NCBI RefSeq assembly: GCF_000403395.2
Contig: NZ_KE159677.1
Location: 97,230 to 161,229 of the forward strand
From: Anaerotruncus sp. G3(2012)
Lineage (GTDB): Bacteria; Bacillota; Clostridia; Oscillospirales; Ruminococcaceae
Length of the DNA: 64,000 bases
Direction of reading: 5' to 3'
This document shows positions 32,232-55,892 of the stretch, piece by piece (within the stretch, counting starts at the first letter, position 1; each line of letters opens with the position of its first letter). The notes under the pieces are model-generated. The model was not told the origin of the DNA, ran no database searches, and worked only from the letters and a program-made list of their open reading frames with translations. A program made the position numbers and the translations under genes.

Positions 32232-32363
32232 TTGAAAGGACTGCCGGAGGAACGTGCTATCACGTTCGCCCACTACATCATTGATCACAATACTACGGTC
32301 CGTGCTACTGCAAAGGAATTTCACATAAGCAAGTCTACTGTACATATGGATGGGGTAAAATAG
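32232..32363 (+). CDS. spoIIID: spoIIID, 5' half (interrupted by the 23.4-kb element)
   Basis: Encodes the first 40 residues of SpoIIID, the mother-cell DNA-binding regulator made under sigma-E, then three element-derived codons (GVK) and TAG. The helix-turn-helix VRATAKEFHISKSTVHMD matches the SpoIIID pattern (VR-x-x-AKEFGVSKSTVHKD). TTG start at 32232 is set by GGGGAGGGAG. The break falls at GGATG (32348-32352) at the end of the recognition helix; the remaining 46 codons are at 55752-55892. The truncated peptide lacks the C-terminal basic region needed for DNA binding, so SpoIIID should be inactive until the element leaves. Confidence 0.9.
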   Translation: MKGLPEERAITFAHYIIDHNTTVRATAKEFHISKSTVHMDGVK

Positions 32364-32395
32364 AACGGTTAATATGGATCGTCAAGTAGAGCAGT

Positions 32396-32427
32396 AAGGC
32401 CAGCACCTGATTGTGGGTGCTGGCCTT
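32396..32427. terminator. Hairpin just inside the left element end
   Basis: AAGGCCAGCACC / GGTGCTGGCCTT, 12 bp, followed by GTTATGCTATTTCC on the plus strand. It lies 33 bases after the stop of the spoIIID 5' half and before the convergent XRE gene, so it would stop spoIIID transcription entering the element. Confidence 0.55.
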
Positions 32428-32448
32428 GTTATGCTATTTCCTATCATT

Positions 32449-32769
32449 CTAAATCGTCTCGATCAAGCAATCAAGTATAGCCTCAATCTTATGCTGCTTC
32501 TCCAAGTCCAGCCCTCCCAGCTTCTCCGCCAGAGGTGTCCATCGAATGGGAGTATCCACCGTAACATAGGCTGACAGGATGGCATCAGCTCCGGTTCCAA
32601 GGGCGTTGCAGATGTCAATCAAGGTAGGCAGGGCTGGCATCAGTAACCCACGTTCAATCCGTGAGATCGAGTTAGAGGCCACATCCGTTATCTCCGCAAG
32701 CTGCTCCTGGGTCATGCCTCTCTCCTTGCGTATGCGCTGTATCGCTTGTCCTCCCTGCTTGAAGTCCAC
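32449..32769 (-). CDS. XRE-family regulator
   Basis: 106 residues. The N-terminal Cro/CI-type helix-turn-helix (about 7-65) reads IRKERGMTQEQLAEITDVASNSISRIERG. A short C-terminal region would dimerise. It is the leftmost gene of the element, facing the junction and divergent from the SLOG gene; the position fits an element repressor. Confidence 0.85.
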   Translation of the reverse strand: MDFKQGGQAIQRIRKERGMTQEQLAEITDVASNSISRIERGLLMPALPTLIDICNALGTGADAILSAYVTVDTPIRWTPLAEKLGGLDLEKQHKIEAILDCLIETI

Positions 32770-32899
32770 CGCTATCCCTCCTGCGTCGATATTTCACCCA
32801 TATTATGAGCGAACTAGACGTGTTAATTCCAGAACGCTATGGACAAAACTCGACGTATAGAGTATAATTAGGAGCAGTTCTTTGTGGAGGTGTTCCCCT

Positions 32900-33421
32900 A
32901 TGCTGGATAGCTGCTGTGCTTTCACAGGTCATCGGCCACACAAGCTCCCATGGCGGTACAATGAAGCTGATAGCCGCTGCTTGGCCCTGAAAGCGGCGTT
33001 AGCAGGGCAGATTACGCAGCTAGTCGATGCTGGGGTGACAGACTTCTACAGTGGTGGAGCTGATGGGGTAGACTGCTGGGCGGCATTGATCGTCCTGGAG
33101 CTGAGGAAAAAGAACCCTGCGCTGAGGCTCCACATGCTCCTGCCCCACGAAGGACAGGCGGACAAGTGGAGTGATTCAGCACAGGAGAGGTATCATTCAA
33201 TCTTGAAGAAGGCTGACTCCGTAGAGTATGTGAGCCGTGAGTATTACGATGGCTGTATGCTTGACCGGAACCATCGGCTGGTAGAAGCCACTGGGGTACT
33301 GCTGGCGGTCTATAATGGGGAGCGACGTGGTGGTACTGCGGCTACTGTCCGATACGCTCGGAAGCTAGGTAGAGGAATCATCATTCTCGATCCGGTCACG
33401 CTTGAAGTCGCCGAGGATTAA
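32900..33421 (+). CDS. SLOG/DUF1273-like (YpsA-type) protein
   Basis: 173 residues. CAFTGHRPHKLPWRY at the N-terminus, FYSGGADGVDCWAALIVLEL and YNGERRGGTAATVRYARKLGRGIIIL are the usual motifs of DUF1273/SLOG Rossmann-like proteins, which are proposed to bind or cleave nucleotide-derived ligands. GGAGG lies before the ATG at 32900. It is common in phages and plasmids of Firmicutes; its task there is unknown. Confidence 0.85.
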   Translation: MLDSCCAFTGHRPHKLPWRYNEADSRCLALKAALAGQITQLVDAGVTDFYSGGADGVDCWAALIVLELRKKNPALRLHMLLPHEGQADKWSDSAQERYHSILKKADSVEYVSREYYDGCMLDRNHRLVEATGVLLAVYNGERRGGTAATVRYARKLGRGIIILDPVTLEVAED

Positions 33422-33647
33422 GTCGGATGAGCGGTAGCCGCAACTATATATTCTTATCTCGGTGGCAGGAAGATGATCTCGCAGCTCAGTGGAATCAGCT
33501 TGCGCGAAGAGCGGATATTCGATTTCGAAAACATAGCAGGAACCTTTTAACGACCCTTCAAAAGCACCTTTTGACGACTGGATTTTAGGCGTCGGACGAT
33601 GATAAACTATGAACAGTATACTCTTGCCGGGAAAGGAGGATGGGACT

Positions 33648-33977
33648 TTGATTGACATTGATCTGGATAACCTCAATGAAGAAGATGTCTATAACGCCTT
33701 TGGTGTTGACGGCAATGAGGGCGAGGCTCTGAACGACATATACCTGGAACTCTATGAGCTGATCGGTCGCGATGGTATGCTCAAGCTGTTCAAGTATTTC
33801 CGTGGTGACAAGATCGACTGTCCCATGCGGCTGTACCGTCCAGAGTTTATCGCTGACTTAGCCAAGCAGACCACAGACCGACGGGAACGTGCCAAGATTG
33901 CGAGAGCTGCCGGGTACACGGTGAAGTTCATAGAAGGTATGCTGCGGAAGCGTCGGGATGAAGAGGAACCCGAATGA
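33648..33977 (+). CDS. Mor-like putative transcription activator
   Basis: 109 residues from a TTG start with AAAGGAGG eight bases upstream; an in-frame ATG at 33609 without a ribosome site would add 13 residues. The part LYELIGRDGMLKLFKYFRGDKI and the terminal helix-turn-helix (RERAKIARAAGYTVKFIEGML) resemble the Mor/C family of phage Mu middle/late activators. The likeness is structural and modest. The gap 33422-33647 shows nothing else. Confidence 0.55.
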   Translation: MIDIDLDNLNEEDVYNAFGVDGNEGEALNDIYLELYELIGRDGMLKLFKYFRGDKIDCPMRLYRPEFIADLAKQTTDRRERAKIARAAGYTVKFIEGMLRKRRDEEEPE

Positions 33978-34011
33978 AGTACACACAACAAAGAGTAGGA
34001 GGAAAATAGAA

Positions 34012-34812
34012 ATGTTCTGTCACAAGTGCGGAGCGCAGATAGCCGAGGGAGCTGTCTTCTGCCATAAATGCGGTACGAAGGCGGTCTATGAGGAGGATGC
34101 TGCCCAACCCGCCGAGCAAGCTGTTGTCAGCGTAGCACCGGTAGCGGCTGCTCCAATGCGCTCTACCAACACAATGACCAATCAGGATAACTTCAAGGAG
34201 TTTGTGGACAACCACATTCAAGCAACCACTAAGTTTCGGTCGGCAGAGGATCTTCTGAAAAATAGTAAACCACAGATGTTCCTGTGGCTTTGCTTTGGTA
34301 TCCCTGCGGTCATAGGTCTTGTAGCAGGCGGTCCGGTAGGTTCCTTGCTATTTGGCCTTGTATTTGGACACACAGCTAGGTGGATAGCTGGTGGAATCAT
34401 TCGTAATAAGTACATCGCAGAAACTGTGGGGAGATTGAATGGGAAGATTGACATCAACGATCTGCTCCGGTTTCTAAATGAGTATTTGAACTATCTGTAT
34501 CCATATTTCCATGAAGGAAAGCTCAATGCAGGTGTTTTGAGGATTCCATTTGGCATAAAGCAGAAGAGTACAGCAATTATTCATGTGATACCTGATAAAG
34601 AAAGCGCCGGTGCCGATAGCTGGAAATATGTATTTGATGCAGAAAACGATCCAACTGTGCTTTCACGCATCATAGGAATTACTATTTTCTCAGTTATCCA
34701 AATTTACAGCCCAAAGCACACCTGTCTGTTTAAGACGGTTCCAATCTTGCAAGCGGCTATGGAATACTATTTGAAACAATACAGGGAGGGTACTAATCAT
34801 GTTTTGTCCTAA
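34012..34812 (+). CDS. Zinc-ribbon membrane protein
   Basis: 266 residues. An N-terminal zinc ribbon, FCHKCGAQIAEGAVFCHKCG, has the CxxC-x12-CxxC spacing. A hydrophobic region (about 105-140, LCFGIPAVIGLVAGG...) probably spans the membrane, followed by a domain rich in Tyr/Phe with no match I know. AGGAGG precedes the ATG at 34012. It overlaps the next gene, another zinc-ribbon membrane protein, by 14 bases; the two are one unit. Confidence 0.7.
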   Translation: MFCHKCGAQIAEGAVFCHKCGTKAVYEEDAAQPAEQAVVSVAPVAAAPMRSTNTMTNQDNFKEFVDNHIQATTKFRSAEDLLKNSKPQMFLWLCFGIPAVIGLVAGGPVGSLLFGLVFGHTARWIAGGIIRNKYIAETVGRLNGKIDINDLLRFLNEYLNYLYPYFHEGKLNAGVLRIPFGIKQKSTAIIHVIPDKESAGADSWKYVFDAENDPTVLSRIIGITIFSVIQIYSPKHTCLFKTVPILQAAMEYYLKQYREGTNHVLS

Positions 34813-36568
34813 ATGTGGTGCTAAAGTTCTTGATGGCGCAGAGTTTTGCCAGAAATGCGGTACTAAATTGGCTGCAAATACATCCACGTCTAACCTGACA
34901 GATTCACCACATCCAAAAAATAAGACTACGGTGGCTGATCCAAAGAGGAAGAAATCTAAAAAGCTGTTTATTATCCTTGGTGTAGTCCTTGCTTTCATTG
35001 TGATACTAATTGTAGCAAATGCTGATAATTTAGCAGAGAGAGGCGCGCAAGATCAAAAAGACGAAGAACATATAAAATCTCAGCAACAGGATTCCGCAAG
35101 TGTAAATCTTTCGGAAATTTACATAAACGAAGAAGAGGGGTTTTCTTTCAACTACCCAAGTGCATGGGTTCCTGTTAGCGAGGAGGAATATTCAAGTCGC
35201 TTCGGCAGCATCGAAGGTGAAGAATATCCCCTGGTTCTGCTTGCAAACGAAACTGACGATCTTCCAGAGGCAAATACCTACATCATGGTATCAAAAATCC
35301 CTGCAACGCAGGATGCCATAAATCATCTCTTTATAGATGACGAGCAGTTTGCGGCTACATTTGACAATGATGTTACTATTAAAAACACATTAACTGCTGA
35401 GATAGATGGCGTTGCGGCGAGAGAAATTACTTATCTAACTTCGGACGGGATTGGTTATCAGAGCTACTTCTATGCGATTGGAACTGCAATCTATCGGATT
35501 GATTTCAGTTGGAGGGGAGAAACATCTGGAAACAATCAAAGGTTTTTTGATGCAATCATAGACAGCTATAAGATTACTTCCCCCGAAACTGCCACTGTAA
35601 CTGATACCTCCGGCAAACTGCTCTGCAAAAATATATCAGTTGATGCAATTATGCAAATGACCGCAGATGAGGTTATTGCTACTTTTGGCGAACCTGAAAT
35701 ATATATCGAAAATGAAAGTATTGAATACGGTGCTGATGCTCCAGAATGGATGTATTTTGACATTTCTAGTGGAAACACAGTGTTTAGTTTCAGTGCTAAT
35801 TCAGAGGAATTTACGTTGAATGGGCAAGGTCTTAATTTGTATTTTGACGATCTCGTAAGCCTGCTTGGTAATGATTATAATAGCCTTGGGGGATCGGGAT
35901 ACGAGTGGATTATTGGAAATCTCTCTTATATTTTCTATATTCCTCCAGAGGACTATATTGCTTATAGCCTCGTGATTTCCAAGTTTGATACAGATGTCCC
36001 GGTTGATAACGATGCGCTTCTGGAACAAAATGAATACTACACCAACTCAGACTCTGAGTTATATGGCAGATGGAGATCCAGCGAAGGGAATTCTATTGAA
36101 CTCTCCGAAGGGGGTTCTGGCAGCATGAGCTTTTGCCTGTGGAGCCAAGATCAATTAGGGAAATGTGATTACATTTTGTGGCAGGCCAATAATGGACATC
36201 TAACATTGGAACCTCATTTCTCATATCAAATGAACTACGAATATATGCCAAAGTCGGAGAAAAATCCTCATGATTATATAGCCCTTCCAATTTGGGGGAA
36301 ATTCTACCGTGTAAAAGGGACTGAGGGTGACAGCATTGTTGGATCTTGGGCGATTGAGTCTGTCAATTCGGACCGCACTAGCCTTGGGCTTTATGAAGAT
36401 GGAACCGGATATTGGTATGGACACGATGCTTATTATTGGAATGCCACCGATACAAACCTTGAAATTTGCATAAGTCTTCAAACTGGATGCGATTACTATG
36501 TGGCTGGCGATATGCTTGAATTGTTTTTCTCTAATGGCAGTATGATCTTTACCAGAGTTGGAAGCTGA
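34799..36568 (+). CDS. Zinc-ribbon, single-span protein with PsbP/DcrB-like extracellular domain
   Basis: 589 residues. A cytoplasmic zinc ribbon FCPKCGAKVLDGAEFCQKCG (2-21) and a basic stretch precede one membrane segment (about 52-73, LFIILGVVLAFIVILIV). The exterior part has a region EEEGFSFNYPSAWVPVSEEEY like PsbP/DcrB lipoproteins (about 112-260), then repeated small domains ending with VGSWAIESVN...LGLYEDGTGYW, a lipocalin-like pattern. Low GC and codon use differ from the GC-rich genes around 37-43 kb. Function unknown. Confidence 0.7.
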   Translation: MFCPKCGAKVLDGAEFCQKCGTKLAANTSTSNLTDSPHPKNKTTVADPKRKKSKKLFIILGVVLAFIVILIVANADNLAERGAQDQKDEEHIKSQQQDSASVNLSEIYINEEEGFSFNYPSAWVPVSEEEYSSRFGSIEGEEYPLVLLANETDDLPEANTYIMVSKIPATQDAINHLFIDDEQFAATFDNDVTIKNTLTAEIDGVAAREITYLTSDGIGYQSYFYAIGTAIYRIDFSWRGETSGNNQRFFDAIIDSYKITSPETATVTDTSGKLLCKNISVDAIMQMTADEVIATFGEPEIYIENESIEYGADAPEWMYFDISSGNTVFSFSANSEEFTLNGQGLNLYFDDLVSLLGNDYNSLGGSGYEWIIGNLSYIFYIPPEDYIAYSLVISKFDTDVPVDNDALLEQNEYYTNSDSELYGRWRSSEGNSIELSEGGSGSMSFCLWSQDQLGKCDYILWQANNGHLTLEPHFSYQMNYEYMPKSEKNPHDYIALPIWGKFYRVKGTEGDSIVGSWAIESVNSDRTSLGLYEDGTGYWYGHDAYYWNATDTNLEICISLQTGCDYYVAGDMLELFFSNGSMIFTRVGS

Positions 36569-36586
36569 CAATTCACATTCACAAAT

Positions 36587-36614
36587 AAAAGGGGGGATGT
36601 GGTCGCCCCTTTTC
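36587..36614 (+). terminator. Terminator-like hairpin
   Basis: AAAAGGGG / CCCCTTTT stem downstream of the zinc-ribbon gene pair, followed by CCCTG, so the U-tract is only the four T of the stem. Confidence 0.45.
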
Positions 36615-36648
36615 CCTGCACGCAGCTTGTAGTGAGGAGATATAGCCA

Positions 36649-36834
36649 ATGAATACGAAGAATCTAACCCATTATGTGAACCCGCCATGCGCCAAGTGTC
36701 CGTACAAGCTGGGCTTGGTACATACGGTAGTCAATCCTTGTCCTCAGTGCAAGGAGAGCGGCTATCAGACGTTCGAGAGATTCCAGAAGCAAGCGTTGGG
36801 AGATAGCTCGACCTCTGAGCATGGGAAAAGGTAA
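36649..36834 (+). CDS. Small four-cysteine (zinc-binding) protein
   Basis: 61 residues with CAKCPY and CPQCKESGY, a CxxC pair spaced by 16 residues, suggesting a small zinc ribbon. GAGGAG lies before the ATG. No known family. It is followed by a terminator. Confidence 0.6.
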   Translation: MNTKNLTHYVNPPCAKCPYKLGLVHTVVNPCPQCKESGYQTFERFQKQALGDSSTSEHGKR

Positions 36835-36859
36835 AGCTGTAGAATTGGATACATGGTCA

Positions 36860-36890
36860 CAAGGACGCCTGTGTTGGGTGTCCTTGTTTT
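36860..36890 (+). terminator. Rho-independent terminator
   Basis: CAAGGAC-g-CC / GG-GTCCTTG-TTTT. Confidence 0.65.
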
Positions 36891-36959
36891 CATCGTATGG
36901 TGTTCGCCCTCAACGACATATTCTATCAATGACATCAATAGGAAATGGAGTGATCTGCA

Positions 36960-37088
36960 TTGTCCAAGAAAAAGATTCTCAAAGCAATCCTGCTCGCCCT
37001 CTCTGTCCTGCTGACGGCGGCACAGAGCACAGATGGAAAGGAGGAACCTGCGAAGTTCAACGATGACCCTGACACATACTCGGAATAG
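36960..37088 (+). CDS. Small signal-peptide-like protein
   Basis: 42 residues from a TTG start with GGAG nine bases upstream. The first half, MSKKKILKAILLALSVLLTA, is a basic stretch plus a hydrophobic core as in secretion signals or a single membrane anchor; the rest is acidic and polar. Stop overlaps the next terminator. Function unknown. Confidence 0.45.
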   Translation: MSKKKILKAILLALSVLLTAAQSTDGKEEPAKFNDDPDTYSE

Positions 37089-37121
37089 AGGGCTTCCCGT
37101 GTGGGAGGCCCTCTATTTCTC
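37087..37121 (+). terminator. Rho-independent terminator
   Basis: AGAGGGC-TTCCC / GGGA-GGCCCTCT followed by ATTTCTCT. Confidence 0.6.
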
Positions 37122-37164
37122 TGCCCAAATCAACAAAATCAAAACAAAATAGGAGGTAACTGTT

Positions 37165-38100
37165 ATGCCCGCTAATGTTGAAACTATGTTCTACGTCCGT
37201 GAAAAGCCCTGGCACGGCCTGGGTACTGAGGTGCAGGAGGCCCCTACCTCCGCTGACGCTCTGATCTACGCTGGCCTGGATTGGGAGGTCATTCAGAAGA
37301 ACGTCTACTCCGAGGATGGCTCCTTGATCGCAGGGTACAAAGTGAACACCCGCAGCACCGACAGCGCCGCCCTGGGTATCGTCAGTGACCGCTACAAGGT
37401 GGTGCAGAACGAGGACGCTTTCCAGTTCACCGATGATCTGCTGGGGGCTGGTGTGACCTACGAGACGGCGGGAGCGTTGCAGGGTGGCCGCAAGGTCTGG
37501 ATGCTGGCCCGTATGCCTCACCGCTACATCATCGCCGGGGACGAGATCGCCCCCTATCTGGTGGTGATGAACTCCCACGATGGTAGCAGCGGTATCAAGG
37601 TTGCCATGACCCCCATCCGTGTTGTCTGCCAGAATACCCTTAACCTGGCTTTGGACAGTGCCAAGCGCATCTGGACCACCAAGCACACCGAGAACGTCAT
37701 GCTCCGTGTCCACGAGGCCGAGGAAACCCTGGGACTGGCTGAGAAATACATGGGTGAGCTGGGCCGTGGCATTGATACCCTGTCCAGGATCAGGCTGACC
37801 GATAAGACGGTCATGGACTTCATGAATGAGTTCTTCCCCGTCACCCTGGATATGCCCGATGTGCAGCGCAAGAACAATCTTCGTCTGTTGGAGGACATGA
37901 AGCGGCGGTACTGGGAGGCTCCCGATCTCTCCAACGTAGGAAAGAACGGCTACCGCTTCGTCAATGCCATCAGCGACTTTGCCACCCATGCCGATCCCAT
38001 CCGCAAGACCAGGAACTACAACGAGAACCTGTTCCTCCGCACTGTCGAGGGCAATCCCATGATCGACAAGGCGTACAAGATGGCACTGGCGGCGGCGTGA
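37165..38100 (+). CDS. DUF932 phage/plasmid-like protein
   Basis: 311 residues of the DUF932 / TIGR03299 family: MFYVREKPWHGLGTEV, LGIVSDRYKVVQNEDAFQF and GSSGIKVAMTPIRVVCQNTLN are its fixed motifs. The family is found in phages and plasmids near recombination genes; its biochemistry is unknown. It starts a run of GC-rich genes and is followed, after a terminator-like hairpin, by a YqaJ-type nuclease. Confidence 0.9.
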   Translation: MPANVETMFYVREKPWHGLGTEVQEAPTSADALIYAGLDWEVIQKNVYSEDGSLIAGYKVNTRSTDSAALGIVSDRYKVVQNEDAFQFTDDLLGAGVTYETAGALQGGRKVWMLARMPHRYIIAGDEIAPYLVVMNSHDGSSGIKVAMTPIRVVCQNTLNLALDSAKRIWTTKHTENVMLRVHEAEETLGLAEKYMGELGRGIDTLSRIRLTDKTVMDFMNEFFPVTLDMPDVQRKNNLRLLEDMKRRYWEAPDLSNVGKNGYRFVNAISDFATHADPIRKTRNYNENLFLRTVEGNPMIDKAYKMALAAA

Positions 38101-38116
38101 TGTTCTATGGCAAATA

Positions 38117-38152
38117 GGGAGCGCATGGCTACAGGCTGTGCGCTCCTTATTC
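38117..38152 (+). terminator. Terminator-like hairpin
   Basis: GGGAGCGCA / TGTGCGCTCC followed by TTATTCTATTT. Confidence 0.6.
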
Positions 38153-38178
38153 TATTTCAATGAAAGTGAGGTTATCAT

Positions 38179-39123
38179 ATGCCTGCAAAAGTATTGGTAT
38201 CTACCGAGAATATGCCCTATGCTGACTGGTTGGAGTACCGCAAGCAGGGCATCGGAGGTTCGGACGCTTCTGTAGTCTGCGGTATCAACCGCTATAAGTC
38301 CCCTGTGGAGCTGTGGCTGGATAAGACGGGCCAGCTCCCGCCCCAGGAAGCCGGAGAAGCTGCCTACTGGGGGACGCAGTTGGAGCCGTTCGTCCGGGCC
38401 GAGTTCACCAAGCGCACCGGAATTGAGGTCAGCTATAAGAGTGAACTGCTCCAGAGCGAGGAGCATCCCTTCATGCTGGCGAACCTGGATGGCATCTGTG
38501 AAGTCCCGGATGTTGGCACTTGTATCTTCGAGGCCAAGACTGCCTCCGCTTACAAGGCTGGGGAGTGGGAAGATACCATCCCGGACGAGTACATGCTTCA
38601 GGTACAGCACTACATGGCCGTCACTGGTTATGCCGGAACCTACATTGCGGTGCTGATCGGCGGCAACACGTTCAAATGGCGGTTTGTGGAGCGTGACGAG
38701 GAATTGATTTCTATGCTCATTGAGCTGGAAGCGGCCTTCTGGAACCATGTCCAGGACTGTACGCCCCCGCCGCTGGATGGCTCCGATGCCTCTGCCAAGT
38801 TCCTTGCTGACCGCTTCCATGACAGCATTCCCAAGTCCCACATCACTTTGCCCGACACTGCCGCTGATCTGCTGGCCCAGTATGATGAAGCCTGTGAGCA
38901 GTTGGAGATCGTCACCGAGCGGAAGCAGAAGGCCGAGAATCTTCTGAAGGAGATGATGGGCGAGAATGAGGTTGGGACTACTGGTGATCGGATTGTCACC
39001 TGGAAGAGCGTGTCCCAGGAGCGGCTTGACAGCAAGACCTTGAAGGCCGAGCATCCCGCTCTCTATAAGAAGTACGCCAATAAGTCATCCTACCGCCGCT
39101 TTACGATCAAGGCGGCGAGTTAA
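38179..39123 (+). CDS. YqaJ-type viral recombinase / exonuclease
   Basis: 314 residues of the PD-(D/E)XK lambda-exonuclease family. YADWLEYRKQGIGGSDASVVCGINRYKSPVELWLDKTG is the YqaJ entry motif; ANLDGIC..TCIFEAKTAS supplies the catalytic D..ExK, and QVQHYMAVTGY follows. It should resect double-strand ends for single-strand annealing. No RecT is recognisable next to it; the following gene may take that place. Confidence 0.9.
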   Translation: MPAKVLVSTENMPYADWLEYRKQGIGGSDASVVCGINRYKSPVELWLDKTGQLPPQEAGEAAYWGTQLEPFVRAEFTKRTGIEVSYKSELLQSEEHPFMLANLDGICEVPDVGTCIFEAKTASAYKAGEWEDTIPDEYMLQVQHYMAVTGYAGTYIAVLIGGNTFKWRFVERDEELISMLIELEAAFWNHVQDCTPPPLDGSDASAKFLADRFHDSIPKSHITLPDTAADLLAQYDEACEQLEIVTERKQKAENLLKEMMGENEVGTTGDRIVTWKSVSQERLDSKTLKAEHPALYKKYANKSSYRRFTIKAAS

Positions 39124-39139
39124 ATTTGGGAGGTTCATT

Positions 39140-39928: not shown

Positions 39929-39947
39929 GATAAGATGCGCTACGATG

Positions 39948-39983
39948 GCCCGGTGTCCCTGCCTTGCGGCAGGGATGCCGGGC
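39948..39983 (+). terminator. Intergenic hairpin, possible attenuator
   Basis: GCCCGG-tg-TCCCTGCC-ttgc-GGCAGGGA-tg-CCGGGC followed by TATTTACTTTT, between two co-directed genes. Confidence 0.5.
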
Positions 39984-48249: not shown

Positions 48250-48369
48250 CGTGCTGTACCTCCGATGGAATTTTCTTGGAATCAGTATACCACACCTGGC
48301 AGGAACAAGCAACCAGTTTGAAGCGGGGACTAGCAACCGGTAACTGGAATAAGATTGTTATAAAAACAC

Positions 48370-48405
48370 GGTGGTATGGGTGGTACGATACCACCATACC
48401 ACCCA
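48370..48405. repeat. Near-perfect inverted repeat
   Basis: GGTGGTATGGGTGGTA / TACCACCATACCACC with one bulged base and a three-base centre. It lies between the methyltransferase remnant and the next gene's terminator; purpose unknown. Confidence 0.55.
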
Positions 48406-48435
48406 CATACGTATGCTTAACCTGGAAACTTATAA

Positions 48436-48462
48436 GGGACGCTGCCACCAGCGCAGCGTCCC
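48436..48462. terminator. Terminator of the DUF6076-type gene
   Basis: GGGACGCTGC / GCAGCGTCCC with TTATAAGTTT on the minus strand and TTATTTTTTT further off on the plus strand. Confidence 0.7.
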
Positions 48463-48470
48463 TCATCATC

Positions 48471-49775
48471 TTATTTTTTTAACCACTCCTGGAACTGGGC
48501 AACGTCTAATTCGCCAGCTCTGGCTTTGTCCAACCTCAGCTTTGCCTCGCTGTACCAGCGTACAAAGTCCTCCTTGCTCATTGTCCCTTTCCTTACACGG
48601 GCGTGATGCGTCTTGTAAGCCCGATTGTAAATCAAGAGGGCTTCATCAGACGCCATCTTTTTCTGAAAAGACTGCTGGGAACCGATAGCGGAACAGCGCA
48701 TCCCAGAGCCATCGACTCGATCACAATAGGCAATTCTTCGATTGGCGGCAACGAAGTATTTACCGCAATGCCTACACTTCCGAACCATCACCTTATCCTG
48801 GAGCATCGACCATAGTTCCAGGTACAATAGCTGGCGCAGGTTGTTAATCCTGTATTCCTCATAGGGTTTGTTCACTGTAATTTCCCTTGCGTGTTCAATA
48901 GCCGAGCAAAAGGTTTCTTCCATGTCAGCGGGGATACCATCACGCCCCACATTCAATTTACCAAGAGCATAGAGCGGGTAAAACTTATCATCCAGCTCAC
49001 GGCTATGTTCCACCGCTCGGCTGTAATCATGTCCGCTTTGATATAAGGTTGGATGTTTAAGAGAAAGACGCTTGGGCACAGTCATTTCAGACCCGCTACT
49101 TGCCACAATGTTGCCGTAGAGCCATATGCGCTGGGGTGTTGTCAACGTCTCTAACCCCGGTGCCGCTATGTCCAAAAGGAAGTAGAGCATATTATAGATC
49201 TCACGCTGCGTCCTGATCTCACGGCTAAACCCCGCAGGCATCTCTCTCGGTACACCGTAGATAGCCGTCTCTATCTCATCATCGGGTTGCTCGGCGGTGT
49301 AGGCGTTCCCACCAGTCCGTTCAAGGTATTCATTATAAAAGTCGCTTGGGTAAGTATCCCCTAATTTCAGCAAGGGGGCCAGCAGTGCCGTTATTCTTTC
49401 CACATACCATGCTTCGGAGAAGTCGGGGATAGTCCCATCTTGGCGGTAGCAGGAATAGAGCAGGAGATCATTAAAGTAGTCGCCGATTGCTCTAATGAAA
49501 ACCTCCCGGACTTCATGCCTGTAATACGGGTGAGCATCTATTAAAACTCTCTTCATCTGGTCAACAGCGACATCACCGCCTGGGCGATCATGCAGCTTGA
49601 AAGTTGCAATATCCATCTGCTGAGAAATGTATTGGTCAAACAGGTCGGGCAGGCATGATAAGTCCTGGACAACGTAATGGAATAGGAGTTCGTGAGAGTT
49701 GTCCTCAGAAAATAGAAGATAGTGCCCCTCATCAAAATAACCATACCCGCAATCATCAAATCCAACGTAGGCCAC
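48471..49775 (-). CDS. DUF6076-like protein with C-terminal zinc finger
   Basis: 434 residues, GTG start with AGGAGG seven bases upstream. The C-terminal part has CRHCGKYFVAANRRIAYCDR..C, a zinc-ribbon pattern used in DUF6076 proteins and in some recombinase-associated proteins, followed by a basic helical tail (VRKGTMSKEDFVRWYSEAK). The N-terminal 300 residues are unassigned. It is transcribed towards the methyltransferase remnant. Confidence 0.7.
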   Translation of the reverse strand: MAYVGFDDCGYGYFDEGHYLLFSEDNSHELLFHYVVQDLSCLPDLFDQYISQQMDIATFKLHDRPGGDVAVDQMKRVLIDAHPYYRHEVREVFIRAIGDYFNDLLLYSCYRQDGTIPDFSEAWYVERITALLAPLLKLGDTYPSDFYNEYLERTGGNAYTAEQPDDEIETAIYGVPREMPAGFSREIRTQREIYNMLYFLLDIAAPGLETLTTPQRIWLYGNIVASSGSEMTVPKRLSLKHPTLYQSGHDYSRAVEHSRELDDKFYPLYALGKLNVGRDGIPADMEETFCSAIEHAREITVNKPYEEYRINNLRQLLYLELWSMLQDKVMVRKCRHCGKYFVAANRRIAYCDRVDGSGMRCSAIGSQQSFQKKMASDEALLIYNRAYKTHHARVRKGTMSKEDFVRWYSEAKLRLDKARAGELDVAQFQEWLKK

Positions 49776-49851
49776 AGTATCCCTCCTAAAAATATATAGG
49801 TAACGCCACCGGCTGGTAGAAAGCTAAATAGAGCGTCATTCAAAGTTCCAC

Positions 49852-49880
49852 TTGACAGCCGCTTACGACTGTGATATTAT
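49852..49880 (+). promoter_or_regulatory. Promoter upstream of the 50-52-kb genes
   Basis: Consensus TTGACA, 17-bp spacer, TATTAT. The following leader (49890-50098) holds a 48-codon ORF (49907-50053) without a good ribosome site; I do not call it a gene. Confidence 0.7.
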
Positions 49881-50098
49881 TGTAATAGAAAGTTGAATGA
49901 TTGTCAATGGCACATTCTTCAACCCAATACGAATTGAGGCACTACTCCGGCAACAACCAAGCCTGCGGGTTTTGTCTAGCAGATATAGCATGTCTGCGGC
50001 TCAGAACTACATCACGCCTGGGTTACGAAGTGGAGGTGACGGAGCAATTCTGAATTGGTTGTAGATGATCTCGATATTTCAAAAAGGAGGGAATTGTC

Positions 50099-50482
50099 AT
50101 GGCAACTATACTGGATAAGTACGAAAACAATACGAATGAGATAGCTGTGCCTGTCGGTGAGTCCGCTGGCAAAGCTGAACAGCGGTGCGCCCTTAGCCGG
50201 AAGGAGCGGAAGATTTTCAAAGCTCTGGCAAAGGCTTTGCGTAAGCACAACAAGTTGATGAAGCAGGAGGCCGAGAGGCGGAGAGCGGAGGAAGAGGCCG
50301 CCGCAAAGGCTGCTGCCGAGAAGGCCGCCAAGCGCAAGAACGGCGCTGGGGGCTTCTTAGGCGGGTTTACGAAGGTGATCTGCAAGGTTCTCCCGCAGAT
50401 CGTGACTGCCACTGTCACGGCAGTGTTGGGCTTCTTCTTCCATCGCAAACCTTCCAAGAGAGCCCTGCGAGCTGCTTTATGA
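50099..50482 (+). CDS. Small protein with coiled coil and C-terminal membrane segment
   Basis: 127 residues. An Ala/Glu/Lys-rich helix (about 55-85) is followed by a Gly-rich turn and a hydrophobic stretch KVLPQIVTATVTAVLGFFF near residue 95-113, then a basic tail. AAAGGAGG precedes the ATG. It overlaps the ATPase gene by four bases (ATGA). No family recognised. Confidence 0.65.
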   Translation: MATILDKYENNTNEIAVPVGESAGKAEQRCALSRKERKIFKALAKALRKHNKLMKQEAERRRAEEEAAAKAAAEKAAKRKNGAGGFLGGFTKVICKVLPQIVTATVTAVLGFFFHRKPSKRALRAAL

Positions 50483-52134
50483 ACCAGACGATGCAGCCTC
50501 GGCGTCCCGAGTGGGTTTTCTTTAATGAATCTGGAGTACCCATCTCCACCTTCATCCCCTCGGCAGTCGGCGTAGTCAGGGTAGTCGGTTCCACTGATGA
50601 ACGGGAGGCTGTTAGGGTACGACTACGGTTTAAGAATGGCAGCGATACAGAAACCACTGTCCCACTATCAGACCTTAACCGTGTGGATTGGTTCAAGATA
50701 GACCATCGCTGCCTGACGAACTCGGAGTACCGTCGGGCCAGAAGGTACATTGCCGATACTATCCGCGCCGGGGTCAGCAACGTCCCTGTGGAGAGGCGGT
50801 ACGTCCTTGACCGGACCGGGATTTACCATATTGGCGATTCAATTATCTTTGTTGCGGGGAACCGGGTCATCACCCAGTCCTCCGCACCGAGAACTGATCC
50901 AGACTTTGAACTGGGACAGCTCCCGCTCCGCCTGGATATTGACGAGAATATCGACATCAGTACGGCTATTGACCGCATGATGCGGCTCATCAGTCTCAGC
51001 CCTGAGATCGGACCAGTCCTTGCGGCACACACAATATCTGGAATTATCAGGGCAGCTTTCAAAAAGGCTGGCATGACCCCCTGTGCGGTGTTGGTCATTG
51101 TCGGAAAATCCGGGATGCTGAAATCGAACTATGTTCCCCATTTAGTTCAGCTTTACAATCGAGCCGATGGAATCGGCCCTACTACCCGGTTCAACTCGAC
51201 AAAGAGGTTTATTGAGGATGCTCTGTATGAGTACAGTGAGTGTACGGCGGTCCTTGATGACCTGCATACAGCAGAATCCAGAGGTATCAAACGGCAGAAT
51301 GAGGATACCGCTGAGGAAATTATCCGGCGTATCGCGGATGATACAGGTCGTGGTCGTACGGACGGCAAGTCTCTGGTGCAACGGAGCTTCCGAGGCAATG
51401 CAGTGTTTATCGGCGAGTACAGTATTGGAAAGGCGTCCACGATCCCCCGTGCTTTGATTGCCAACATTACGAAACCTCCCAATGGCGCTATCCTTGACGA
51501 ATACCAGCGCAGTCAACCGCTTCTGGTATCGACCTTTTACCATCATTTCATCCAGTGGTATGTTGACCACTTTGATGAAATTCGGGATGCCATTGACGCA
51601 CGGCTCACTCAGCTACGCAGGGCAACGGCTTCCTCCACTACTCACGGTAGGCTGCGGGATACCCAGTTCTACCTCGAAACCTCCTACATGGTGTTGCTGG
51701 AGTTTTGCAAGGATTCTGGGTTCTGCTCTGAAGAAGATGCCAGGGATACATACTGTAGTTTCAGCACCCAGCTTCACAAGCTAGTCCAAGCACAGGAAGC
51801 CCGATTCAGGGAGAGTGTAGAGGTAAAAGCGATTGACTATCTTGCTCTCATTCGGGATCTTTATAAGAAAGGCTACTTCCGAGTAGCAAAGGATGTACAG
51901 GATTTCAAGCCTGAAAAGCATGATGGTTTAATTTACTATGGCTGCCTTTGCCTAAGAGGTAAGTGCCTGGAACAGAAGCTCAAAAGCATCCAATCAAATT
52001 TGAGCCTTGACGCTTGTGTGTCAGTCTTACTTAGTAGGGATGCACTCAAACTGGTCGAGAGCAAGAACACCGTGCAGATCAACGGCACTGGTGGCAAACG
52101 GTTCTACGCTATCAAACTCAGCAAGCTACGATAA
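50479..52134 (+). CDS. DUF927/primase-helicase-like ATPase
   Basis: 551 residues. Walker A-like VIVGKSGMLKSNYVP (about 208-220), Walker B CTAVLDDLH (about 255) and an arginine-bearing IANITKPP/FRGNAVFIGEY region match the P-loop core of DUF927-type helicases encoded by phages and plasmids. The N-terminal 190 residues may be a DNA-binding or primase-linked part without recognised motifs. Likely used for element replication. Coupled to the small membrane-anchored protein upstream. Confidence 0.7.
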   Translation: MNQTMQPRRPEWVFFNESGVPISTFIPSAVGVVRVVGSTDEREAVRVRLRFKNGSDTETTVPLSDLNRVDWFKIDHRCLTNSEYRRARRYIADTIRAGVSNVPVERRYVLDRTGIYHIGDSIIFVAGNRVITQSSAPRTDPDFELGQLPLRLDIDENIDISTAIDRMMRLISLSPEIGPVLAAHTISGIIRAAFKKAGMTPCAVLVIVGKSGMLKSNYVPHLVQLYNRADGIGPTTRFNSTKRFIEDALYEYSECTAVLDDLHTAESRGIKRQNEDTAEEIIRRIADDTGRGRTDGKSLVQRSFRGNAVFIGEYSIGKASTIPRALIANITKPPNGAILDEYQRSQPLLVSTFYHHFIQWYVDHFDEIRDAIDARLTQLRRATASSTTHGRLRDTQFYLETSYMVLLEFCKDSGFCSEEDARDTYCSFSTQLHKLVQAQEARFRESVEVKAIDYLALIRDLYKKGYFRVAKDVQDFKPEKHDGLIYYGCLCLRGKCLEQKLKSIQSNLSLDACVSVLLSRDALKLVESKNTVQINGTGGKRFYAIKLSKLR

Positions 52135-52435
52135 GAGCGCAATTTAGGGGACGGTGTTTCCACCCCCTGAAAAATGAACTTCGCGCAGGCTGCGTAAATC
52201 GACAGCCGAAGCCATCCTGCGGCCCTCTGGACTGTGGGTGGTCCTCTCCCTGCGAGGTGAGGAAAATGCACAGAGAAGTACGGGTTCCCTTTGTAATGCG
52301 ATGCCGCCGTATCTCTTCTGCCTTTGACTACATATTCTCTTGATAGCACACAGGAAGTACGGTTTCGATGTACTACTTCCGGCTCTGCTCTCATAGGATT
52401 GGACGAGGCATCAAGGAGGAGGTGGCAATGCCGCA
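52135..52435. other. 300-base region before the small 52436 gene
   Basis: No long gene. It has a weak hairpin after the ATPase stop (TTTAGGGG / CCCCCTGAA), a stem GGAAGTA / TACTTCC (52353-52380) and a possible 23-codon ORF beginning ATGTAC near 52370 whose TGA overlaps the ATG at 52436. Confidence 0.4.
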
Positions 52436-52621
52436 ATGAAGCAGCGCAAGCTCAACTACCGGTTCCACGATCCCAACCCAGCGGCAGTGACCGCCGACTA
52501 CATACTAAAAATTTTAATTGAGGCCAACGCGGGAAAGGTGGAGGCGGCAATACAAAATGCCGCCGATACCACCCTCGCTGCCGATGAGGGACCGGATCGC
52601 TGCCAGGGACACTCCGCATGA
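52436..52621 (+). CDS. Small 61-residue protein, candidate recombination directionality factor
   Basis: Begins MKQRKLNYRFHDPNPAAVTA and continues with a helix DYILKILIEANAGKVEAAIQ. AAGGAGGAGGTGG lies upstream, and its ATG overlaps a TGA. I recall very similar short proteins beside serine recombinases in clostridial elements. Large serine recombinases need a small partner for excision and these are typically short, basic and near the recombinase. This is the best candidate in the element on those grounds, but it is inference. A strong terminator begins before its stop. Confidence 0.6.
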   Translation: MKQRKLNYRFHDPNPAAVTADYILKILIEANAGKVEAAIQNAADTTLAADEGPDRCQGHSA

Positions 52622-52641
52622 TGCGGGGTGTCCCCTTTTTT
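52606..52641. terminator. Strong bidirectional terminator
   Basis: GGGACACTCCGCAT / ATGCGGGGTGTCCC followed by TTTTTT, between the small gene and the convergent ATPase. Confidence 0.85.
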
Positions 52642-52644
52642 GCC

Positions 52645-54051
52645 CTACACCTCATAGTATTCCAGTATATCCGCATACTCCACCAGCGTCACATTGCCTA
52701 ACTCAGTTGCCCTTTCCATACAGCCCTTGGTAAAGCCGGACTTAGAGAACAGAAAGCAGTACACCTTACTGTGTTGGAACAGATGGCTGCGGTGAACCAG
52801 TGTTTCCAATACCCCCAGGTCAACTCGTTCATTTGTCCACTTGCACTCGCCAAAGAGGGCGGTGGTCTTGTCCTGTTCCCCCAGTATGTCGATCTCCGCC
52901 TGTGTCTTTTCAATGGGGTCATTGCCCCACCAGCGACCCAGGGAAGCAAACTCCACCGGGGAGCGCCCATCCAGCAGCAGCTTCCAAAGATACTGTTTAC
53001 ATATCTCTTCAAACACCTTGCCCATGTAGTGGTCGAGCTGCGGCGCGATGCGCTGGTACACCAGGTCAGCGGCTCCACGGGCAATCAAGGAATTGTTCTC
53101 CAGCACAAAGCGATGCCAGAAGCGGAACATATTATCCTCGATGGAGTACAGGGACTTACGGGAAGCCTTCTCCCCATAGGGAGTCTCCTTCTGCACGATC
53201 CCCAGGCTGATGAGATTCTTGATGTAGCTGGCGCAGACGTTGGTATCCTCGCCGACCTTGCTTGAAATCTCCGACATCCGAGAAGCCCCTGCTGCAATGG
53301 CGGTAATGATTGCCGTGTAAATGGCTGGTTCCCGCACCTCCTGCTTCAGAAGGTTCACCGGCTCCTCATAGAGAAAGGAAATGGGATTGAGGAAGGTGTT
53401 CTTGATGTTTTCCTCAATACTCAGACGGTCGTTGATTTGCAGCAGGTATTGTGGTGTCCCTCCGACGATCCCGTAGGCCAACGCCTTGTCCTCGCCTTTG
53501 AAGTGGTTGAAATAGCGGCAGGTTTCCTCGAAGTCGAAGGGCAGCAGTTTCATCTGTGCCGTGCGCCTGCCGTAGAGCGGGGCCTTATATGCCAACACCT
53601 GATCCTCCATATAGGACATGGACGAGCCGCAGAGAATCAACATCAGCTTGGAGGTATCCTTATTTTTGTCGATCAGGAGCTGCAAGGTGGAAGCAAGGCT
53701 TTTGGAGGACCGTGCCACATAGGGGTACTCATCCAGCACGAGGATCACCCGTTCCTTCTCCGCCATCTTAAAAACACATTCCAGCGCCGCCTGGAAGGAC
53801 ACGAAGGAAGTCTCCGCCGCAATGCCGCTGGCGTACTCCAGGATGCTCTTGCTGAGGTTCTCCAGGTTCTGCTTGGCATTGCTCTCCACGCCCATGAAAT
53901 AGATAGCTTTCTTACCCTGGATAAACTGGGTCAGAAGGGCTGTCTTTCCCACGCGGCGGCGGCCATACACAACTGCAAACTCAAACTTGCCTGATGCGTA
54001 TAGTTGCTCCAGCGATTTCAACTCCCGCTCTCTTCCGATAAACATAGCCAC
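52645..54051 (-). CDS. AAA ATPase with DUF234 (archaeal-type ATPase)
   Basis: 468 residues. Walker A FAVVYGRRRVGKTALLTQF (about 24-42), Walker B VILVLDEYPYVARS, sensor CGSSMSYMEDQ, a winged helix around 245-300 (GASRMSEISSKVGEDTNVCASYIKNL) and a C-terminal PD-(D/E)XK-like DUF234 domain (EIDILGEQDKTTALFGECKW). Such STAND-like/DUF234 proteins are frequent in gut bacteria; roles in stress, defence or toxin control are suspected. It is convergent to the small gene and divergent from the recombinase. Confidence 0.9.
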   Translation of the reverse strand: MAMFIGRERELKSLEQLYASGKFEFAVVYGRRRVGKTALLTQFIQGKKAIYFMGVESNAKQNLENLSKSILEYASGIAAETSFVSFQAALECVFKMAEKERVILVLDEYPYVARSSKSLASTLQLLIDKNKDTSKLMLILCGSSMSYMEDQVLAYKAPLYGRRTAQMKLLPFDFEETCRYFNHFKGEDKALAYGIVGGTPQYLLQINDRLSIEENIKNTFLNPISFLYEEPVNLLKQEVREPAIYTAIITAIAAGASRMSEISSKVGEDTNVCASYIKNLISLGIVQKETPYGEKASRKSLYSIEDNMFRFWHRFVLENNSLIARGAADLVYQRIAPQLDHYMGKVFEEICKQYLWKLLLDGRSPVEFASLGRWWGNDPIEKTQAEIDILGEQDKTTALFGECKWTNERVDLGVLETLVHRSHLFQHSKVYCFLFSKSGFTKGCMERATELGNVTLVEYADILEYYEV

Positions 54052-54138
54052 ACCCCCATTCTTCTCATTTAGTATACCACATCAGCCACAAGTTAGTCAA
54101 TCATGATCTACTAAAGGTAGTTCCACTAAATTTCGGCA

Positions 54139-54167
54139 TTGATTCTCTAGCGAAGGTGTGCTATCAT
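54139..54167 (+). promoter_or_regulatory. Promoter of the large serine recombinase
   Basis: TTGATT, 17-bp spacer, TATCAT. A CATACAGA overlaps the -10 and resembles a sigma-E -10, but no matching -35 is seen, so vegetative transcription is the simpler reading. Confidence 0.55.
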
Positions 54168-54211
54168 ACAGATATAGTAGAACGTCTTGATTTTAATGGA
54201 GAGGTTTACCT

Positions 54212-55759
54212 ATGAACATTGCCGCTTACTGCCGTGTCTCCACGGAGAAAGAAGACCAGCTCAACAGTCTGGAGGCACAGAAGGAGTTCTTCTCTGAGTA
54301 CACTCAGCGTACCGGAGACACCCTCATCCGCCTGTACGCTGACGAGGGCCTGTCCGGCACGAAGATCAAGAACCGTAAGGAGTTCCTGCGCATGATGGCG
54401 GACGCCGAGCACCACTTGTTCGACATGGTGGTAGTCAAGGACATCTCCCGCTTTGCCCGGAACACGGTTGACCTGCTGCAAAATGTCCGCAGGCTGAAGG
54501 CCCTGGGCATCGAGACCCAGTTCCTCACCGCCAACATGACCAGCATGGGCAACAGCGAGTTTGTTTTAACCATCTTCGGTGCGCTGGCTCAGGAGGAGAG
54601 TGCCAACACCTCCAAGCGGGTGAAGTTCGGCAAGAAGCTGAACGCCGAGAAGGGGCGTGTCCCAAACATCGTCTACGGCTACGACAAGACCATCGGCGAC
54701 TACTTCAACCTGACCATCAACCAGGAGGAGGCTGCTGTCATCCGGCAGATCTATCACTGGTACACCCAGGAGGGCTACGGCTCCGCCAAGATTGCCAATA
54801 TGCTCAACGAGCGTGGCCTGAAGACCAAACGCAACTGCCAGTGGAGCCAGAACGCTGTGGGGCATATCCTCCGAAACGAGCTGTATACCGGGAAGATCAT
54901 CAATGGCAAGCAGGAGGTCACGGACTTCCTCACCGGACAGCGGGCGGACAGGGACGAAACTGACTGGATCGTGGTGGACAAGCCCGAGCTGCGCATCATT
55001 GACGATGAAACCTTCCAACAAGCACAGGAAGTCCTGCACTCCCGGCACAGTGCTTTCAAGATCACTCGGGAGCGGCAGAGCAATAAGCACCTGTTCTCTA
55101 CCCTCATCAAGTGTAAGGAGTGCGGCTGGTCTTTCCGGCGTACCGTCCGCACCTATAAAAACACCTATGTACGCTGGGTCTGCTCCGGTCACAACGGACG
55201 GGGAGCCGACAGCTGCCCCAACGCCGTGACGGTGGATGAGGAGGAACTGATCGAGGTCTTGCAGGAATACTTCGCCGGACTGCTGAAAGCAAAGAAGTCC
55301 GTCATCAGCTATGTGGTGAACCAGTTTCAGAAGGTCTACAAGGCCAAGGACGAGAATCTGGACTACGAGAGAGAATTGACCGCCCAGCTTGCCAAGCTGC
55401 AAAAGACCCGGCAGAAGTACATGGATATGTACGCCGATGACCTGATCTCCCGTGACGAGCTGAACGCCAAGATCGGCGGGATGCGCAAGGAGATTGAGCG
55501 GCTGGAGAACGAATTGAAGATGATCTCCTACAACCTGACCAAAGGGGAGCAGTTGGAGAGCGTCCTGACCAGCACCTTCAAGGAGATCGAGGACATCACC
55601 GACGTACATCAGATGACCAACACCCAGCTCAAGCGTATTATACAGAAGATCGAGGTAGATAAAGAGGGGAATGTTGACATCTACCTGCGCCTTTTGGGCG
55701 ATTTAGGGCTGGACAGTACCGTTCTAATTAGCGATAACCTTACACAAGGATGTAACTGA
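54212..55759 (+). CDS. Large serine recombinase of the spoIIID element
   Basis: 515 residues. The catalytic domain (1-150) has AAYCRVSTEKEDQLNSLEAQ with nucleophile Ser10 and VVVKDISRFARN. The recombinase domain (about 160-270) and a zinc-ribbon domain (CKECGWSFRR..WVCSGHNGRGADSC) follow, then a coiled coil (about 370-450). It belongs to the same class as SpoIVCA (skin), SprA (SP-beta) and TndX-type enzymes. GGAGAGG precedes the ATG. The last codons, QGCN and TGA, run through the attachment core into spoIIID sequence. In the excised circle the frame would end QGWGKIERLIWIVK instead. It should excise the element during sporulation given a directionality partner. Confidence 0.92.
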   Translation: MNIAAYCRVSTEKEDQLNSLEAQKEFFSEYTQRTGDTLIRLYADEGLSGTKIKNRKEFLRMMADAEHHLFDMVVVKDISRFARNTVDLLQNVRRLKALGIETQFLTANMTSMGNSEFVLTIFGALAQEESANTSKRVKFGKKLNAEKGRVPNIVYGYDKTIGDYFNLTINQEEAAVIRQIYHWYTQEGYGSAKIANMLNERGLKTKRNCQWSQNAVGHILRNELYTGKIINGKQEVTDFLTGQRADRDETDWIVVDKPELRIIDDETFQQAQEVLHSRHSAFKITRERQSNKHLFSTLIKCKECGWSFRRTVRTYKNTYVRWVCSGHNGRGADSCPNAVTVDEEELIEVLQEYFAGLLKAKKSVISYVVNQFQKVYKAKDENLDYERELTAQLAKLQKTRQKYMDMYADDLISRDELNAKIGGMRKEIERLENELKMISYNLTKGEQLESVLTSTFKEIEDITDVHQMTNTQLKRIIQKIEVDKEGNVDIYLRLLGDLGLDSTVLISDNLTQGCN

Positions 55760-55892
55760 TCGTTTAAAGAAAATCAACCCCACGATCTATGCGCAGGTCA
55801 AGCAGGTACTTGATCTAAACAAGTCTGAACGGCACATCCGGGGCGGGATTGCCACGCGGGAAAAGTATGCACGAATCAAAAGCTACGGATGA
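55748..55892 (+). CDS. spoIIID: spoIIID, 3' half
   Basis: Reads (from GGATG) VTDRLKKINP, then YAQVKQVLDLNKSERHIRGG and ATREKYARIKSYG before TGA at 55890-55892. This is the C-terminal half of SpoIIID; the B. subtilis protein has VTERLPEINP-like and SIRHLRGGEATKLKY-like sequences at the same place. It has no start codon or ribosome site of its own. Joined to 32232-32351 it gives an 86-residue SpoIIID, a normal length for Clostridia. It overlaps the last codons of the recombinase in another frame. Confidence 0.9.

Follow-up and report, generated by a model that had tools for sequence, protein, structure and literature searches.

A 23.4-kb element in spoIIID of Anaerotruncus sp. G3(2012), predicted to be excised in the sporulating mother cell

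Genes named as interrupted by intervening elements are sigK, spsM, spoVFB, gerE and yabG (PMC10747680). In the sigK skin element of C. difficile, a large serine recombinase (LSR; CD1231) is constitutive, while the small gene (72 aa) for its recombination directionality factor (RDF; CD1234) is under sigma-E (PMC5025042). SP-beta, in spsM of B. subtilis, has an LSR and a small RDF with a mother-cell promoter (SprA/SprB; PMC6957869), and gin, in gerE of B. cereus ATCC 10987, is a non-prophage element with LSR and RDF (GirC/GirX; PMC5595907). The elements yin, in yabG of C. botulinum, and vfbin, in spoVFB of B. weihenstephanensis, have also been described (PMC10747680). The present analysis concerns a stretch of 64,000 nucleotides from Anaerotruncus sp. 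G3(2012) (contig NZ_KE159677.1, positions 97,230 to 161,229; hereafter the window, whose coordinates are used throughout), in which a mobile element of 23.4 kb lies within spoIIID. With a probability of roughly 0.83, the element is predicted to be removed in the sporulating mother cell through the joint action of its own LSR and a small helper protein, a directionality-factor candidate, which would rebuild an SpoIIID of 86 residues.

The split spoIIID gene and its element

Both halves of spoIIID were located where the original prediction had put them, on either side of a 23.4-kb element; the 5' half starts with TTG at 32232 and the 3' half ends at 55892. The LSR claimed for the end of the element is likewise present, with Resolvase, Recombinase and zinc-ribbon domains and a profile relation to SPbeta YokA structures. 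The main features are as follows.

32191..32202, + strand: predicted spoIIID promoter, sigma-E-like -10 region (GCATATAAATGG), a box of the kind found upstream of intact spoIIID genes
32232..32342, + strand: spoIIID 5' part, 37 codons up to the crossover, TTG start (sequence and profile search)
32343..55742, + strand: spoIIID-intervening element, 23,400 bp, with the crossover put at CA
54212..55759, + strand: LSR, its last four codons and stop lying in host spoIIID sequence
55743..55892, + strand: spoIIID 3' part, HKDVTDRLKK...KSYG, beginning with the CA of attR, stop at 55890-55892

Exact excision would rejoin two in-frame parts into an SpoIIID of 86 aa. In the genome to which the window belongs (G000), a draft of 24 contigs, 3.62 Mb and 96% complete, just these two pieces exceed the Pfam SpoIIID cut-off, and a profile search of the whole draft revealed no second intact copy, an observation that the original prediction had held would count against it. 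The element is not a sigK skin element: its target is spoIIID, and the genome has a full-length sigK-like gene (G000:C22:152272-152913; 293.6 bits, below the curated cut-off of 298.65).

Like C. difficile skin, the element is of the LSR type and splits the gene of a mother-cell regulator, but its target lies one step earlier. SpoIIID stands between sigma-E above and sigma-K below, and gating at this point would shift the logic of skin and SP-beta to an earlier mother-cell decision. CD1234 is under both sigma-E and SpoIIID, whereas SpoIIID would be absent here before excision, so the helper must work without it and its promoter would have to be SpoIIID-independent; the likeness of the helper to CD1234 is one of arrangement rather than of direct sequence comparison. 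SP-beta resembles the spoIIID elements in its pairing of an LSR with a small RDF (a candidate here), and an LSR relative with an uncut attP lies on one phage contig (see below). It differs in that spsM is not a regulator gene, and no capsid, tail or terminase was found among the window proteins tested. In gin a very small mother-cell transcription-factor gene is interrupted, as in the window, although gene, class and recombinase are different and gin has three recombinase genes. The targets of yin and vfbin are also other genes, and the putative RDF of yin has a possible sigma-K promoter whereas that of the window is sigma-E-like. Literature searches naming spoIIID, with subscription journals mostly outside their scope, found no spoIIID-intervening element, in keeping with the original prediction, whose author had been aware of none.

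Crossover site and recurrence of the split gene

The original prediction placed the joint within a GGATG shared by the two junctions. That core was rejected, as it would leave Met where 30 of the 31 intact spoIIID genes checked have Lys; the crossover is within TACA. All five intact genomes of the genus encode STVHKD (GTACATAARGAY in four, GTCCACAAGGAC in one). At element-bearing loci the 5' halves mostly continue as TACATATGG, TACATACAG or TACATACGG, giving Met or Thr, and the 3' halves usually start TACAYAARGA, giving Lys. Since intact genes carry Lys and the 5' halves run into Met or Thr, the ATG (Met) at the left junction is attributed to the attP of the element and the AAG (Lys) at the right junction to the host. 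The predicted join therefore keeps the 86 residues first proposed for it, while the proposed STVHMD gives way to STVHKDVTDRLKK, which has the conserved STVHKD motif.

Inside TACA the crossover is most likely at CA (32343/55743), a step preferred over the others by the symmetry of attP. In an attP rebuilt from the right and left ends of the element, complementary bases are symmetric about CA, with nine consecutive pairs at offset 17-25 in the window and 15 consecutive pairs in Marasmitruncus massiliensis P3646 (G005); the dyads are centred on CA in 3/3 sites computed (window, G005 and the phage-like contig L224). The att site has the form typical of skin-type elements: a short core flanked by inverted repeats (about 50 bp). 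The sites in the window are these.

32343..32344, + strand: attL crossover dinucleotide CA, placed by comparison with intact relatives and by the symmetry of the attP dyad
32345..32389, + strand: left end of the element, half of attP, with the arm TAGAACGGT at 32361-32369
within 32345..32389, + strand: 14-codon LSR tail YGWGKIERLIWIVK and stop, in the LSR frame read across the circle junction
55718..55726, + strand: other attP arm (ACCGTTCTA), inside the LSR coding sequence

One intact spoIIID gene (L023; G055:C75:18932-19165) reads STVHTD (GCATACAGATG) and so resembles the attL of split genes; it may be a scar left by an earlier element or a product of gene conversion.

The original prediction had proposed to look for relatives with an uninterrupted spoIIID and for splits at the same codon across the Clostridia, and both were found. 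The genus of the window is probably Marasmitruncus. Among its 11 genomes spoIIID is intact in five, in two halves in five and represented by a 5' half in one (G009), which gives 6/11 in pieces. At the family level, spoIIID matches occur in 335 of 396 genomes and are missing from 61. The gene is in pieces in at least 29/396 (both halves in 19, one half in 10), a count made up of 23 of the 26 weak-match genomes that were located and the six of the genus. The 3' halves begin at profile position 27-36 and the 5' halves end at 39-44, except that the 5' half of G295 ends at position 57 through a stop. G368 is an additional case with a split and an intact match. Three candidates were discarded: G152, whose adjacent frameshifted pieces reflect a frameshift rather than an insertion, and G085 and G379, with matches below the cut-off.

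In a class-wide sample spoIIID matches were found in 280 of 391 genomes, and up to 15 of the 391 have a split gene, with both halves in nine (13 of the 14 genomes picked for a weak best match, plus G000 and G199; genomes with an intact and a split copy would be missed, and those with a single half are apparent cases, a break at a contig end being indistinguishable from an insertion). The match of G563 is weak but full-length, and this genome was counted as intact. In the junctions read at this level the break is STVH|KD, and it recurs class-wide with related recombinases. Six families are firm, with both halves or an LSR adjoining the 3' half (f1, f15, f21, f30, f48 and f69). In f59 an LSR adjoins the 3' half but the 5' match is weak and contains stops, and f3, f22 and f53 are apparent cases. 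Among the named hosts are Lachnospiraceae, Oscillospiraceae and Anaerobacterium, besides two records titled Selenomonadales and Pelosinus (L190, L194), groups of the Negativicutes. In G684 (C27) and G752 (C37) the 3' half is intact, with a distant LSR beside it in G684. Three copies of the 5' half, each with attL, occur in G372 (C11:580-696, C40:261-377 and C40:9559-9675; L088, L090); the two C40 copies lie 9.3 kb apart and differ very little over about 250-300 bp, and repeated duplication of the promoter together with the 5' half is possible.

At 26 loci with a 3' half (family and genus, window included), the LSR or a relative lies directly upstream in 21; the other five are G226 and G075, whose LSR is at the left end, and G152, G005 and G167. 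LSRs of at least 51% identity occur in 22/396 family genomes, all of which have a spoIIID half (a single one in G036, G039, G156, G295, G346 and G357; G368 has an intact match as well), and those at 42-48% occur also with an intact spoIIID (G092, G220) or none (G047). Among 80 named loci, a 3' half lies downstream of the LSR in 47/53 at 48% or more identity to the LSR of the window, 3/13 at 40-47% and 0/14 below 40%, and 44 of those 47 halves are within 200 bp of the LSR. The six misses are L144 and L166 (intact spoIIID), L189 (no spoIIID), L195 (the LSR of G005 itself) and L201 and L208 (contig ends). At L144 and L166 the LSR is accompanied by a helper and adjoins other sequence; these are possibly off-target integrations or retargeted relatives. 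Pieces are the only form of spoIIID in 38 of 41 named LSR-bearing genomes. Since LSRs of merely 33-35% identity sit at the same codon at the class level, insertion there may have arisen on more than one occasion.

The recurrence bears on the idea that the halves come from a contig misjoined in assembly or binning. The genome of the window is indeed a 24-contig draft, but like junctions occur in independent genomes with both halves on one long contig, including Schaedlerella arabinosiphila DSM 106076 (6.3-Mb contig, L150) and G575 (4.1-Mb genome in one contig), and the probability of an artefact is negligible.

Neither half has decayed in the genus, where further inactivating mutations would have spoken against the original prediction. 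For the 3' half pN/pS is 0.13 in split and 0.13 in intact genomes, and for the 5' half 0.095 and 0.086, respectively. Between G000 and G007, dN is 0 for both halves at dS 0.61 and 0.81, with a dS of 0.72 for a flanking host gene, 0.42 for the LSR, 0.48 for the helper and 0.73-1.14 for four cargo genes; two more cargo genes are too diverged to measure well. The simplest reading of these values is joint descent with spoIIID kept functional, although independent insertions or exchange are possible, and the unevenness of the divergence leaves room for later exchange.

A plain mobile parasite might instead have knocked out spoIIID in a host that does not sporulate, or that sporulates without SpoIIID, with excision serving occasional transfer of the element. 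SpoIIID is reported to be less crucial than sigma-K for sporulation of C. difficile (PMC5025042) and need not be essential everywhere, and the 61 family genomes lacking a match fit such a view. It is nevertheless improbable given the undecayed halves, the equal pN/pS and, between G000 and G007, a dN of 0 at a dS of about 0.7, a divergence that most element genes equal or exceed. The genome of the window also has spo0A, spoIVA and sigE/sigK-like genes, and a sigma-E-like promoter on the helper (see below) would be purposeless in a knocked-out host. In addition, M. massiliensis P3646, a type strain, has spoIIID in split form only, with the halves 125 kb apart, and its description reports spores visible on SEM micrographs (PMC9584879). 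A literature search on sporulation of Schaedlerella and Anaerobacterium returned nothing usable.

Candidate control of excision by a small helper

Ten complete elements, each on one contig and 5.4 to 37.3 kb long, were compared. Only the LSR and a helper of 48-67 aa are common to 10/10; the other clusters present in six or more elements represent the spoIIID 3' half or reading frames that overlap that of the LSR, and further cargo is shared pairwise (G000/G007 and G075/G226). The helper matched no Pfam family. It has 828 homologs in the protein collection, all unnamed or hypothetical among the 120 listed, and profile matches in 36 of the 53 named loci with an LSR of at least 48% identity. Its predicted structure is mainly one long helix with uncertain ends (mean pLDDT 80, pTM 0.46), a lone helix of the kind that would match anything in a fold search.

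52371..52399, + strand: predicted sigma-E-like box TACTACTT-N12-TCATAGGAT upstream of the RDF candidate (pattern and matrix tests)
52436..52621, + strand: RDF candidate (helper), 61 aa, conserved HxPN motif; function predicted from co-occurrence and homologs
54139..54167, + strand: predicted sigma-A-like promoter TTGATT-N17-TATCAT upstream of the LSR, read by eye

spoIIID is sigma-E-dependent. Training on the upstreams of 31 intact spoIIID genes gave a two-box matrix (TCATATnC-N12-GCATATACA) that scored 41 helper upstreams far above dinucleotide shuffles (Fisher p 1.5e-15; 14 helper matches, some of them duplicates, were left out) and showed no enrichment on 42 LSR upstreams (p 0.07) or 90 other open reading frames (ORFs; p 0.12). 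When all 56 distinct helper upstreams of sufficient length were taken, a sigma-E-like box 20-80 bp upstream was found in 27, compared with 7/1146 other ORFs (p 3e-33, an indicative value, as the pattern was written after inspecting some upstreams and the upstreams are related). The LSR promoter was considered as the developmental switch and set aside, LSR upstreams being without matrix enrichment; TTGACA/TATAAT-like sequences were seen by eye upstream of several LSRs.

Developmental control would thus come from the helper, with its sigma-E-like promoter, and not from the LSR. We infer a skin-like switch that combines an LSR made from a vegetative promoter with a mother-cell-specific directionality factor and in which excision precedes the existence of SpoIIID. 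The LSR would be available from its sigma-A-type promoter, and sigma-E, once active in the mother cell, would transcribe both spoIIID and the helper gene. The helper would then switch the LSR from integration to excision, recombination of attL with attR at CA would restore STVHKD, and SpoIIID could be made, after which the sigma-K stage could follow. The forespore would keep the element, which could then be inherited at little cost. The original proposal that spoIIID is gated by DNA rearrangement is borne out to the extent that the gene is single-copy, uninterrupted relatives exist, the halves are undecayed and the same codon is hit repeatedly; it is amended in that the joint gives Lys rather than Met and that control would be exerted through the helper rather than the LSR.

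Excision might also be developmental and yet driven by another signal, such as read-through from spoIIID, stress or a late vegetative regulator acting on the LSR or helper, the protein of about 60 aa being something other than an RDF, for example a repressor or partition helper. In G226 and G075 the helper and LSR directly follow the 5' half, where the spoIIID promoter could drive both, the predicted helix is not diagnostic, and the strict box is missing from 29/56 helper upstreams. This alternative is nonetheless unlikely, as no gene besides the LSR and helper is shared by all ten elements and the sigma-E-like boxes are enriched upstream of the helper and not of the LSR.

Several observations weigh against excision by the LSR and helper under sigma-E. 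The box pattern is post hoc, drawn from related upstreams and absent from those same 29, the best matrix match in the window (9.2 bits) falls elsewhere than on the conserved-position box, and it is from co-occurrence, size and promoter that the helper is labelled an RDF. Regarding the split itself, the intact gene of L023 has Thr where Lys serves as the diagnostic residue, G152 appeared split and proved to be a frameshift, 10 of the 29 family genomes have one half alone, and the class genomes G684 and G752 give only a weak 5' match with three stops, a piece that is possibly decayed or unrelated. G399 and G417 carry the LSR elsewhere together with an intact spoIIID, and G432 carries it without spoIIID. 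Between G000 and G007 divergence is lower in the LSR and helper than elsewhere, and much higher in two cargo genes. Finally, the spore record belongs to M. massiliensis P3646 and not to the species of the window; the 125-kb interval of that strain holds an LSR of a more distant group (48%), with 36 kb between it and the nearer end, and the parts of the interval that were fetched gave no helper homolog.

Because the split recurs at one codon in many Clostridia, annotation that seeks an intact spoIIID would score split genomes as lacking the gene though they may sporulate. Excision can be tested directly in two named strains, M. massiliensis P3646 and S. arabinosiphila DSM 106076, and the LSR-helper pairs may find use as reversible integrase tools.

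Recombinase tail, cargo and neighbouring observations

In most elements attP sits inside the LSR gene, and integration removes a conserved tail of 14 residues. Where the LSR frame is open into the core, it would be extended in the circle by a YGxxKxERxxWxxx-like tail that stops at codon 15. Among open-frame LSRs, 16/21 have Trp at codon 11 and 14/21 the stop at codon 15, both being 0/7 in out-of-frame LSRs (Fisher p 0.0007 and 0.006); the sequences are related, and the counts follow two reclassifications, G008 (cut by a contig end) having been moved to the open class and G792 (contig end) dropped. As first run, the figures were 15/20 versus 2/9 (p 0.014) for Trp and 13/20 versus 1/9 for the stop. 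In 16 tails chosen for a stop at codon 15, pN/pS over codons 9-14 is 0.52 in the LSR frame, against 0.72 and 1.20 in the other two frames. The conserved KxER coincides with an attP arm, and this part of the conservation may be at the DNA level. In the integrated state host codons give an immediate stop (ACA|TAA) in 15/21, and in the window they give QGCN and then a stop. In myxophage Mx8, attP lies inside int and integration changes the C-terminus of the integrase; the window differs from it in that the recombinase is a large serine recombinase and the stop codon comes from the host target gene.

A search of IMG/VR for free forms gave one good relative, at 69% identity, the other LSRs among the best 80 being at 45% or less. 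The relative lies on L224 (IMGVR_UViG_3300028833_003189), a 62.4-kb contig with matches to DNA polymerase, endolysin and tail proteins, and the frame of its LSR (528 aa) continues across an attP that is uncut and bears the dyad, ending in a tail of this type. L224 is a tailed-phage-like contig, and the phage is predicted to lysogenise through spoIIID. A bolder reading, given somewhat short of even odds, is that spoIIID serves throughout the class as a landing site for phages and small integrative elements. Time and again these would have placed the mother-cell regulator that comes first after sigma-E under a switch by DNA rearrangement, with a directionality factor dependent on sigma-E only as its driver. 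The LSR gene would be built around its own attP and be full-length, with tail, in the circle; integration, with the spoIIID HK codons supplying the stop, would amputate the tail, and the form of the enzyme would then report integration and could lock it until the factor appears.

The element in the window would not be a complete temperate prophage, as no capsid, tail or terminase gene was found among the part of its ORFs scanned with Pfam, NCBIfam and PHROGs. Its other genes include the following.

32449..32769, - strand: Cro/CI-type HTH regulator (Pfam HTH_3)
32882..33421, + strand: YspA/SLOG-family protein, cargo (Pfam PF06908)
37165..38100, + strand: phage/plasmid-like protein, cargo (TIGR03299 match; PHROG 1221)
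38179..39123, + strand: lambda-type / RecE-like exonuclease, cargo (NCBIfam/PHROG-type profile matches)
43288..43956, + strand: small serine resolvase, cargo (Pfam)
45920..46858, + strand: ParB-like partition protein, cargo (Pfam, PHROG)
52645..54051, - strand: ATPase_2/DUF234 ATPase, cargo (Pfam)

Two XerC/D-like tyrosine recombinase genes (30013-32071, - strand) adjoin spoIIID on the left, outside the element; they had no match in 12 spoIIID loci of relatives, some of them cut by contig ends, and were set aside.

Another mother-cell gene, spoIVA, is in pieces in 4/11 genomes of the genus (G005, G008, G006 and G010), and a literature search found no spoIVA-intervening element. G008 and G010 have the PSIH site in common as the breakpoint of their 5' pieces, and the 5' piece of G006 breaks at another site. 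In M. massiliensis (G005:C2:445076-451735; L335) a 5.2-kb element has an LSR (30% identical) that abuts the 3' half and a TTCTGTTTG/CAAACAGAA dyad, and joining of its flanks gives APSIHMMAANITTEVSPIVGSEKQSEE. Its cargo, judged by eye (G005:C2:446950-449640), includes a probable dihydroxy-acid dehydratase gene (IlvD-like) and a probable bile-acid/sodium-symporter-like gene.

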